A stretch of DNA of 13,515 nucleotides from assembly GCA_019347795.1 (NCBI GenBank), contig JAHWKS010000041.1:1-13515 (forward strand). Direction: 5' to 3'. The position numbers and the translations under genes are program-made. This document shows positions 4,577 through 9,508 of the stretch, one piece after another. The notes under the pieces are model-generated. The model made no database searches. It was not told where the DNA came from and saw only the letters and a list, made by a program, of their open reading frames with translations. Positions within the stretch are counted from its first letter, which is position 1. Every line of letters begins with the position of its first letter. The DNA is from Planctomycetota bacterium (GTDB lineage Bacteria; Planctomycetota; Planctomycetia; Pirellulales; Pirellulaceae).

Positions 4577-5065
4577 ATGACGGATTTAAAGGCGATCGAG
4601 ATTGTCGAGGCGAACCTCGACCTTCCGCAGCATCAGCGGGCGGTCGTGGGGCTGCTTGATGGCTACGCCCGCACGCCGGCCGGAGGCGGCGCGCCGATCT
4701 CTGCCGAGGCTCGCGAGCGGATGCTCCCGGAGTTGCGGCGGCGAGCGAACCGCTTGATTCTTCTGGCTCTGATCGACGGCAAGCCGGCAGGCATTGCGGT
4801 CTGCTTCGAAGGCTTTTCCACCTTCATGGCCAGGCCGCTGTTGAACATTCACGATTTAGCCGTGCATCCTGAGCACCAACAACGGGGCGTGGGGACGCAG
4901 CTTTTGGCCGAAGTCGAGCGGCGCGCCCGCGAGCGCGGCTGCTGCCGAGTGACGCTGGAAGTGCTGGAGCACAACGTCGTCGCCCGCAAGCTCTACCGCC
5001 GCCTCGGCTTTCGCGGCGATGGCGAGGCCGAAGAAGCGAATTACTTTCTCACGAAGAAGCTGTGA
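4577..5065 (+). CDS. GNAT family N-acetyltransferase
   Basis: This 162-residue protein is a stand-alone GCN5-related acetyltransferase that uses acetyl-CoA to acetylate an unknown amine. The central strand and pyrophosphate loop are clear: LLNIHDLAVHPEHQQRGVGT (88-107), with QRGVGT (102-107) binding acetyl-CoA. NVVARKLYRRLGF (133-145) is the usual C-terminal helix and strand that close the cofactor site. The N-terminal part (ANLDLPQHQRAVVGLLDGYA) belongs to a GNAT subfamily with a conserved NLD-P-H-LL-YA pattern. It lies 32 bases after the oxidoreductase on the same strand and may be read from the same transcript, though no functional tie is visible. The codons for residues 12-23 are nearly identical to bases 1514-1549 in the ceramidase leader. 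The substrate is unknown. Confidence 0.9.
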   Translation: MTDLKAIEIVEANLDLPQHQRAVVGLLDGYARTPAGGGAPISAEARERMLPELRRRANRLILLALIDGKPAGIAVCFEGFSTFMARPLLNIHDLAVHPEHQQRGVGTQLLAEVERRARERGCCRVTLEVLEHNVVARKLYRRLGFRGDGEAEEANYFLTKKL

Positions 5066-8143: not shown

Positions 8144-8288
8144 AGAACAGGCGATTCCGCCGCACGTGACTTCATCCATCTTGTCGCATGGGCCGCAGGG
8201 CGCGGGCTGAACGTCCATTTGCTTGCCGCTCTCGGTCGCCGGCATTCGCCGTGGGAAACCCGTTTACCTGGACCATTCTGAGGCCGCT

Positions 8289-8732
8289 ATGGCGCCCCTG
8301 CTCACCGAACCAGCCGTGAATCGAGAAAACTACCTGACGGACGAGGGAGACGGAGACTTTCTTTCCGGCGCCGCGCTCCGCACTCGCGAGGGGATCGACG
8401 ACCACGTCGTGGGCGACTTGGTGCTGCTTTTCAAATTGTTCGCCGACGAGACGCGGCTCCGCATCCTGCTGCACCTGATGCAGCACAGCGAGTTGAACGT
8501 CCGCACGCTTTGCGAGATGCTCGGACAGAGCCAACCGGCGGTGAGCCATCACTTGGCGCTATTGCGGGCGAACGGCCTGATCGAGTCCCGCCGCGACGGC
8601 AAGCACAACTTCTATCGCGTGCTTCCCGAGCGCTTCGAAGAACTAAGCGGCATGATCTTCCACCTGGCGGGCAACGCCGCCGGCGCCATCCGCTTCGAAA
8701 ACTTCACCCTCACCCGAAGCGAGAACGAGTAA
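8289..8732 (+). CDS. ArsR-family winged-helix transcriptional regulator
   Basis: From the ATG at 8289 (TGAGG five bases upstream) the protein has 147 residues. A winged helix-turn-helix of the ArsR type spans about residues 45-115: LLFKLFADETRLRILLHLMQ, then LNVRTLCEMLGQSQPAVSHH (recognition helix SQPAVSHHLALLRANGLI) and the wing ESRRDGKHNFYRV. The metal-binding ELCVCDL box of arsenic and cadmium sensors is absent: the equivalent stretch LNVRTLCEM has one cysteine. It is therefore unlikely to sense metals in the ArsR/SmtB manner and resembles the other planctomycete regulators of this fold. An acidic extension of about 40 residues precedes the DNA-binding domain. It probably represses its own transcription through the inverted repeats upstream; that is inference. 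The REP-flanked transposase gene follows directly. Confidence 0.85.
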   Translation: MAPLLTEPAVNRENYLTDEGDGDFLSGAALRTREGIDDHVVGDLVLLFKLFADETRLRILLHLMQHSELNVRTLCEMLGQSQPAVSHHLALLRANGLIESRRDGKHNFYRVLPERFEELSGMIFHLAGNAAGAIRFENFTLTRSENE

Positions 8733-8756
8733 CGCGGAGTTTTGGCGCCGCCGCCC

Positions 8757-8787
8757 GGTTAGCGACGGGGCTTGCCCCGTGCGCCCG
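8757..8787 (+). repeat. Left arm of the 31-bp REP-like inverted repeat
   Basis: This arm is a perfect reverse complement of 9451-9481 over 31 bases, with mismatches immediately outside on both sides. Its core, ACGGGGCTTGCCCCGT (8765-8780), is itself a palindrome with 7-bp arms, so it can fold alone as well as pair with the distant arm. A leading GTTAG tetranucleotide-type tag before a small palindrome is the usual layout of REP elements. Confidence 0.9.
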
Positions 8788-8838
8788 TCGCAGTTCTCGG
8801 CGCGTTGCTTCGGCTATCTGGCGCGATAAAATCTCGCC

Positions 8839-9435
8839 ATGCGAGTCCGCGCCTATCATTCCATCATCTCCGCGTACGGCTTCTGGCTCCCCAACGACCC
8901 TCGCGGCTCGTGGTCGGATTGGATTCGTTCATGGGAGTTGTTTCTTCAAGGACGCGCCACCAAGGTAAGCACGACACGCTCCGTCGCGGGAAAACCGCAC
9001 AATCGACAGAAGCGCCTCGCGGCGAAGCAATCTCTTCTCTCCCCGCCCGTCGTTTTCGACGGAACTCAAGCTCAATCCGTCGCACTTGGTTTTAAGGAAG
9101 CCGTCGAGGAGAGCGGCTATGTCGTCCATGCGTGCGCTATTCTTCCCGAACACGTGTATCTGGTGGTCGTACGGACTAGCAACCGGGACATCGAACGGAT
9201 CGTCGGACATCTGAAGGGACGGGCGACACAGCATCTGATGAAGAATGGGCTTCATCCGCTGCGCGACTTCCGTGATAGGAACGACGAAGTCCCGTCGCCT
9301 TGGGCTCAGAAGGGATGGAACGTATATCTCTTTACGACGGAAGAAATACGCAGCGCGATCAGGTACGTCGAAGATAATCCGCTTAAGGAAGGGAAGCGGC
9401 GGCAGGCGTGGTCGTTGGTGACGCCGTTTGAGTAG
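8839..9435 (+). CDS. RAYT-like transposase (Y1/HUH, IS200-related family)
   Basis: This 198-residue protein belongs to the Y1 transposase superfamily by overall pattern: RAYHSIISAYGFWLPNDPRG at the start, HACAILPEHVYLVV (97-110) where the metal-binding HUH motif lies, IVGHLKGRATQHL (121-133) as the helix that normally carries the catalytic tyrosine, and AIRYVEDNPLKEG (173-185), a typical RAYT end. RAYTs nick and join single-stranded DNA at REP hairpins. Two key residues look altered: the HUH pair reads His105-Val-Tyr107, and the 121-133 helix has no tyrosine. The protein may be inactive or use other residues. The Trp-Leu-Pro-Asn-Asp-Pro-Arg-Gly-Ser-Trp stretch recurs in planctomycete homologues. 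Perfect REP-like repeats lie 51 bases upstream of the start and 15 bases past the stop. The start codon ATG at 8839 is the natural choice. Confidence 0.82.
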   Translation: MRVRAYHSIISAYGFWLPNDPRGSWSDWIRSWELFLQGRATKVSTTRSVAGKPHNRQKRLAAKQSLLSPPVVFDGTQAQSVALGFKEAVEESGYVVHACAILPEHVYLVVVRTSNRDIERIVGHLKGRATQHLMKNGLHPLRDFRDRNDEVPSPWAQKGWNVYLFTTEEIRSAIRYVEDNPLKEGKRRQAWSLVTPFE

Positions 9436-9450
9436 GAGAGTCCATGGTAG

Positions 9451-9481
9451 CGGGCGCACGGGGCAAGCCCCGTCGCTAACC
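9451..9481 (-). repeat. Right arm of the 31-bp REP-like inverted repeat
   Basis: This arm is the exact reverse complement of 8757-8787, with the same palindromic core (ACGGGGCAAGCCCCGT at 9458-9473 on the plus strand). It lies 15 bases after the RAYT-like stop and 27 bases before the methyltransferase start. As RNA it could also act as a transcript end or stabiliser for the transposase mRNA. Confidence 0.9.
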
Positions 9482-9508
9482 AGAGTATCGGGGAAATTGA
9501 TTTCTCCC

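Follow-up and report, generated by a model that had tools for sequence, protein, structure and literature searches.

A probable REP-RAYT unit with TTAG-headed hairpins in a planctomycete genome

The 13,515-nucleotide stretch of planctomycete DNA analysed here (the window) contains what we take, with a probability of roughly 0.85, to be a REP-RAYT unit belonging to a RAYT clade centred on planctomycetes. A RAYT-like gene lies between two hairpins with outward-facing heads, and the repeat that forms these hairpins is dispersed through the genome both singly and as REPIN-like inverted pairs, with compensatory change in its stem. The corresponding site is empty in a congener, and the head of the hairpin across the clade is mostly YGTTTAGC.

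The unit and its genomic site

Features of the unit, in window coordinates:

8733 to 9508, no strand: ArsR-SpoU intergenic region containing the unit, 776 bp
8757 to 8787, plus strand: left REP, head outward, with GG-TTAG-C, the hairpin ACGGGGC-TT-GCCCCGT, a bulged G, and GCGCCCG
8839 to 9435, plus strand: RAYT-like Y1 transposase gene encoding 198 aa, with the nucleophile Tyr176 retained
9151 to 9159, plus strand: HUH motif codons H105-V106-Y107, the second metal-binding His replaced by Tyr
9451 to 9481, minus strand: right REP, a perfect inverted copy of the left REP, head outward

The original prediction of one RAYT-like gene framed by identical inverted palindromes is exact in its coordinates, with the 31-nt arms (8757-8787 and 9451-9481) 100% complementary at a spacing of 663 nt and the 198-aa ORF (8839-9435) located between them; the next-best inverted pair in the window reaches at most 83% complementarity among the 25 longest of 118. 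An ORF for an ArsR-type regulator (8223-8732) precedes the RAYT gene, and a SpoU methylase follows it (start taken as 9509, stop 10009). The sharp 31-base boundaries that had been claimed are retained in part: matching does end abruptly, but the repeated unit is a conserved element of ~28 nt, seen in 29 genomic copies, rather than one of 31 bp, with the terminal CCCG of the window arms common to only some of these copies. Similarly, the description of the unit as “complete” needs qualifying, since the transposase has Tyr at the position of the second HUH histidine of its relatives. The proposal that each arm folds on its own (core ACGGGGC, TT, GCCCCGT) is borne out by single-stranded DNA folding energies of -9.2 and -9.3 kcal/mol for the arms alone (z of about -2), with 10/200 and 5/200 shuffles folding as well, and the stem is longer than had been proposed, with 7 bp in its upper part, a single bulged base, and then 2–3 further pairs. 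Pairing of the two arms into a long-range stem around the gene, also suggested in that prediction, may be feasible.

In the congener G001 (99% complete), ArsR, SpoU, and PurA occur in the same order, with identities of 76, 80, and 85% respectively, and 38 bp separate the stop of ArsR from the start of SpoU, compared with 776 bp in the window genome. Neither RAYT nor REP is present in this gap of G001, no REP at ≤2 mismatches is found genome-wide, and the one distant RAYT-like gene of this genome (30% identity) lies elsewhere. A RAYT match around SpoU was found at 0/19 relatives' loci, an ArsR match being present at nine of the 19. This arrangement suggests that the unit was gained in the window lineage, with the flanking DNA too diverged for the junction to be placed at base level. 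A chance palindrome was rejected as the explanation of the arms on the grounds of their perfect match, the genomic copies, and the empty site in the congener.

The transposase

The window protein scores 42.1 bits (E 7.5e-11) against the NCBIfam family REP_Tyr_transpos (NF047646), below the equivalog cut-off of 80, with this family ranking above IS200 (23 bits), and its Pfam Y1_Tnp score of 20 is below the cut-off of 23. Homologues number 3879 at E 1e-3, and those named by their source are mostly “REP element-mobilizing transposase RayT” among the 120 matches listed. An AlphaFold2 model (35-row alignment), with a mean pLDDT of 84 and residues 19–48 mostly below 50, returns ISDra2 TnpA (2xma, E 1.2e-5) and E. 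coli TnpAREP with a REP hairpin (4er8, E 1.5e-5) as top Foldseek matches, at TM scores of 0.44–0.48 by query length and 12–14% identity (0.48 and 12% for 4er8). The model indicates a Y1 HUH transposase fold for the window protein.

The nucleophile Tyr176 is invariant in 35/35 alignment rows, with a nucleophilic Tyr found in 199/200 proteins of the wider set by pattern scan and by eye, the exception being L120, where it is out of frame. Tyr107 (codon TAT, 9157-9159) replaces the second HUH histidine, giving HVY in the window protein where the clade has HUH. His is found at this position in 118/119 other homologues among the matches listed (two read by eye) and at 80/80 related loci (the best 80 of 253; five by eye). 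As P0032 (62% identity), the sole other HVY protein among the 120 homologues listed, has the same motif, the substitution may have had more than one origin; H107Y itself may also be a one-base assembly error. The HUH histidines hold the metal required for cutting (PMC8266576, PMC2817692) and, with H107Y located at a metal-binding His, the window copy would be expected to cut weakly or not at all, and its DNA-cutting activity may have been lost. The window protein departs from near-invariant columns at Y68S, H107Y, and F193L, with 8/34 other aligned proteins exceeding it in such departures at a 94% threshold, and one of 34 exceeding it and three tying at 97%; as the result shifts between these thresholds, the comparison is weak evidence on whether this copy has decayed.

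Copies of the repeat within and between genomes

The source assembly comprises 5.9 Mb in 976 contigs and is 72% complete, and was searched with a 22-nt core at ≤3 mismatches to either of two subtypes. Recurrence of the 31-mer and its core elsewhere in the genome, put forward as a check on the prediction, is observed, with contig C930 carrying the full 31-mer a third time and 27 core copies lying outside the window. The core TTAGCGACGGGGCTTGCCCCGT occurs 19 times at ≤2 mismatches in its own genome (reversed control pattern 0) and 0 times at this threshold in 59 relatives, the congener G001 included. The second subtype TTAGCGGCGGGGCTTGCCCCGC occurs 28 times at ≤3 mismatches (reversed control 1) which, together with a copy on C787 from the first-subtype search, gives a total of 29 REPs.

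The aligned consensus of the 29 copies is [C/T]G-[A/G/T]-TTAGCGRCGGGGCTTGCCCCGYGCG, an element of ~28 nt with sharp ends. Position -2 is G in 29/29 copies and position -3 a pyrimidine in 28/29, both positions lying outside the search pattern, and a bulged G separates the upper and lower stem in all 29. The two stem subtypes are connected by compensatory changes, with A-T replacing G-C at one stem pair in seven of 25 distinct rows and at another in two. The number of cells changed on both sides (nine, over 25 rows) is reached by 0/500 shuffles and compares with 0–1 in slid controls, with the fraction of paired cells (95.6%) and the covariation score (0.145) also reached by 0/500 shuffles; two of the five pair measures are not above shuffles, namely pairs with a double change (108/500) and further pair types (500/500).

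Ten of the copies are arranged as five inverted pairs (C273, C310, C634, C857, and C868), with every head outward and start-to-start spacings of 62, 62, 106, and 145 bp, and 699 bp around the RAYT gene. The other 19 of the 29 are single, a possible 5-mismatch partner on C124 being left uncounted. The pairs L009/L040 (C310) and L038/L043 (C634), both of 62-bp spacing, have similar flanks, as if they lay in paralogous genes or a duplicated segment. One close RAYT copy was found in the 72% complete assembly. The RAYT-like genes on C706 (35% identity), C529, and C760 were rejected as sources of the window REP, the 320–340 bp on either side of each showing other sequences and, by eye, no window REP. 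The palindrome adjoining the second RAYT on C706 (L013) includes GTTTCGCG and may represent a second REP family.

The repeat could also have been equally common in genomes lacking a related RAYT, which is not the case. In an order-wide survey of 196 genomes (RAYT homologue at E≤1e-10, window-type REP at ≤1 mismatch), the REP is present in 7/33 RAYT-bearing and 2/163 RAYT-less genomes (Fisher p=6e-5, genomes counted as independent), and in 6/32 and 2/163 with the window genome excluded (p=2.8e-4, counted likewise). Near copies number 2–3 in the two RAYT-less carriers, G126 and G205, whose assemblies are 75% and 86% complete. In G187 and G150, which have the RAYTs closest to that of the window (64% and 60%), 21 and four copies occur, and among the matches listed almost all of them read GTAG in place of TTAG. 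The REP type of locus L061 is present in 15, 10, and 10 copies in the genomes of L061, L067, and L063/L075 (the last two loci sharing an isolate name), all with that RAYT type, with one diverged copy in a fourth genome and none in the other 19 of the 23 searched; among the same 23, the REP of L118 is restricted to its own genome (five copies).

By analogy with TnpAREP, the transposase itself, or else a recent ancestor or relative that had the His, would recognise the single-stranded REP through its TTAG head and bulged stem, with Tyr176 cutting at a nearby dinucleotide. Such cutting would spread paired REPs as non-autonomous elements, as is thought to occur for TnpAREP with GTAG REPs, and the unit itself resembles a REPIN with a gene in its spacer. 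H107Y probably weakened or abolished cutting by the window copy, so the present REPs are likely to be relics of past activity or to be served by another copy.

A more thoroughgoing loss, in which the unit has decayed, H107Y has killed the RAYT, and the REPs survive as fossils through drift or because they serve some other purpose, has a substantial chance of being correct, though one short of even. The sharing of H107Y with P0032 only, among the 120 homologues listed, points in this direction, as does the high proportion of singlets (19/29), which Bertels and Rainey describe as remnants (PMC3116915). However, the ORF is intact and the arms flanking the gene are still perfect, and the finding that some other proteins equal or exceed the departures at Y68S, H107Y, and F193L is weak evidence. 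That the unit is instead an ordinary IS200/IS605-type insertion sequence, the hairpins being its ends, is improbable: whilst the common fold, the hairpin at each end, and the congener site without the unit are all compatible with such an element, one close gene copy was found in the 72% complete assembly, compared with 29 hairpin copies, the two ends are identical as well as inverted, and NCBIfam places REP_Tyr_transpos above IS200. It is more improbable still that the arms are transcription terminators flanking the gene by coincidence since, although the hairpins are GC-rich and intergenic, no T-run follows either of them on either strand by eye, conservation extends beyond the stem to the unpaired head YGNTTAGC, and copies at ≤2 mismatches number 0 in 59 relatives.

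The TTAG head and its relation to known systems

Of the related loci, the best 80 of 253 were analysed; record titles name planctomycetes for all except L112 (Vicinamibacteraceae, isolate PLA1). Within these best 80, inverted arms (score ≥19) between the gene flanks are present at 53 loci, compared with 3/159 mispaired controls, and strong arms are absent at 27. A motif-free k-mer count gives GTTTAGC as the top 7-mer, found at 45/80 of these loci and in 3.0% of 945 control window pairs, with the 8-mers CGTTTAGC and TGTTTAGC at 39/80 and 25/80 respectively. The stem sequence varies widely from locus to locus, with the head mostly constant. The arrangement is not always a frame of two REPs, with the head of the upstream arm facing the gene at some loci, and a strict scan finds no YGNTTAGC hairpin within 300 bp of the gene at 45 of the best 80 loci.

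Comparison of hairpins near the genes (n=237 from 81 loci, window included) with those far from them (n=722) places TTAGC at the foot of 95 near and 24 far hairpins. GTAGC (13 near and 8 far), TTCGC (27 and 20), and GAAGC (28 and 29) show three- to fivefold enrichment. GTAG is not enriched at near feet (14/237, compared with 37/722 far), nor are GTGG and CGTC, and GTAG and CGTC were consequently rejected as the head; CnGA is likewise not enriched (41/237 near and 169/722 far). The sharing of GTTTAGC beside these RAYTs suggests that the clade uses mainly TTAG rather than GT(A/G)G, with some sub-clades apparently using GTAG, TTCG, or GAAG.

Heads were scored at the 54 of 81 loci that have strong arms, giving 37 TTAG, six GTAG, four TTCG, four GAAG, and three other, where a label denotes a pattern match anywhere in the arm and those of L116 and L130 are doubtful. 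On the tree, three of the GTAG heads (L059, L060, and L120) form a clade beside the window RAYT, with a weak join to the window (90/64), and the remaining three are placed elsewhere. The TTCG heads of L061, L067, and L074 form a clade with the unlabelled L063, and the four GAAG heads with the unlabelled L107. Leaving out the three loci labelled other, the 51 labelled rows require seven changes of head state, whereas none of 200 label shuffles gives fewer than 10 (mean 13.5). Setting aside L116 and L130 (49 rows) leaves five changes, compared with at least 10 (mean 11.7), and with six near-identical rows also dropped (43 rows), five compare with at least seven (mean 7.9). The clustering of head states on the tree thus stands out against shuffled labels when every row is used, and support for co-evolution of guide and enzyme is modest after removal of the near-identical ones.

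RAYTs between inverted REPs were described in 2010 (Nunvar 2010, PMC2817692), GTAG REPs in planctomycetes in 2013 (PMC3733652), and feet other than GTAG in 2018, in subclass 2.6 (mostly Bacteroidetes) and in class 3, with CnGA (PMC6006769). The gamma-proteobacterial REP-RAYT system, or REPtron (PMC2817692, PMC8266576), resembles the window unit in its Y1 fold, its gene between inverted REPs, and its dispersed hairpins with a conserved 5' head, and the bulged stem is shared with E. coli REPs, which require the bulge (PMC8266576). In contrast to that system, the window head is TTAG within YGNTTAGC rather than GT(A/G)G, the stretch YGFWLPNDPRGSWS is conserved at the N-terminus within the clade, and the window copy has HVY rather than HUH. 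We therefore class the unit as a REP-RAYT variant, because these two textbook features, the GT(A/G)G head and the intact HUH motif, are absent whilst fold, frame, dispersed repeat, and genome co-occurrence are alike. The TTAG head, its occurrence across most of a planctomycete clade, and the altered HUH motif all go beyond the original prediction.

The five outward pairs are similar to REPINs (Bertels and Rainey 2011, PMC3116915), in which two inverted REPs enclose a spacer, although copies in the window genome are few and mostly single (19/29); the count of 29 is low beside the hundreds reached in Pseudomonas (table of PMC2817692). Class 3 TnpAY1 enzymes, found mainly in planctomycetes and acidobacteria (PMC6006769), share the extended N-terminal conservation, the phylum, and hairpins other than GTAG, but are described there with a CnGA foot and a Y----Q motif, compared with TTAG and Y---NP (Y176-VEDN-P181) in the window unit, and membership was rejected on the missing Y----Q and the unenriched CnGA. 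The TIRYT/TIRtron of PMC3733652 is also comparable: there, too, a RAYT-like gene is framed by inverted repeats belonging to a family, and the species concerned lack GTAG REPs; however, GGGGWSAS, the motif given for some TIRYT repeats, is missing from the window arms when compared by eye, and TIRYT membership was rejected on this comparison. Neither a TTAG head nor the octamer YGTTTAGC was encountered in the literature searched, although a TTAG-type hairpin may be listed in the supplements of PMC6006769 and PMC3733652.

In TnpAREP systems, the tetranucleotide 5' of the hairpin affects cutting, with CT the usual site and positions 3–4 (AG) proposed to select this site by pairing; changing the head shifted the cut site in one system, and similar attempts failed in two others (PMC8266576). 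By analogy, a CT cut would be predicted for TTAG heads, because TTAG retains AG, and a CG cut for TTCG heads; the conserved YG immediately preceding the head is an alternative candidate for the site. We lean slightly towards the wider proposal that the planctomycete-centred clade replaced the GTAG guide with the octamer YGTTTAGC (guide TTAG), that sub-clades switched to GTAG, TTCG, or GAAG, and that guide and enzyme co-evolved, which would make the cleavage dinucleotide predictable (CT for TTAG, GTAG, and GAAG; CG for TTCG).

The choice of cleavage site by TnpAREP is partly solved, with the model of pairing by the guide tetranucleotide built on GTAG systems. Natural guide changes within a large clade provide ready pairs for this model, such as the sister enzymes L092 (GTAG) and L132 (TTAG), which have similar stems, and the head offers a recognition sequence for finding planctomycete REPs, many of which would escape a scan limited to the GTAG foot.

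Two further observations concern repeats. The TTCG-headed REPs of genomes G062, G063, and G069 (including L160-L168) fall into two stem subtypes, the outer pair of the upper stem being either A-T or G-C; the window genome likewise has two. Elsewhere in the window, a 36-bp direct repeat is found at 1514-1549 and 4611-4646, its copies 97% identical and 3.1 kb apart, with the latter inside an ORF that by eye resembles a GNAT acetyltransferase (ANLDLPQHQR) and the former near the start of a different ORF.
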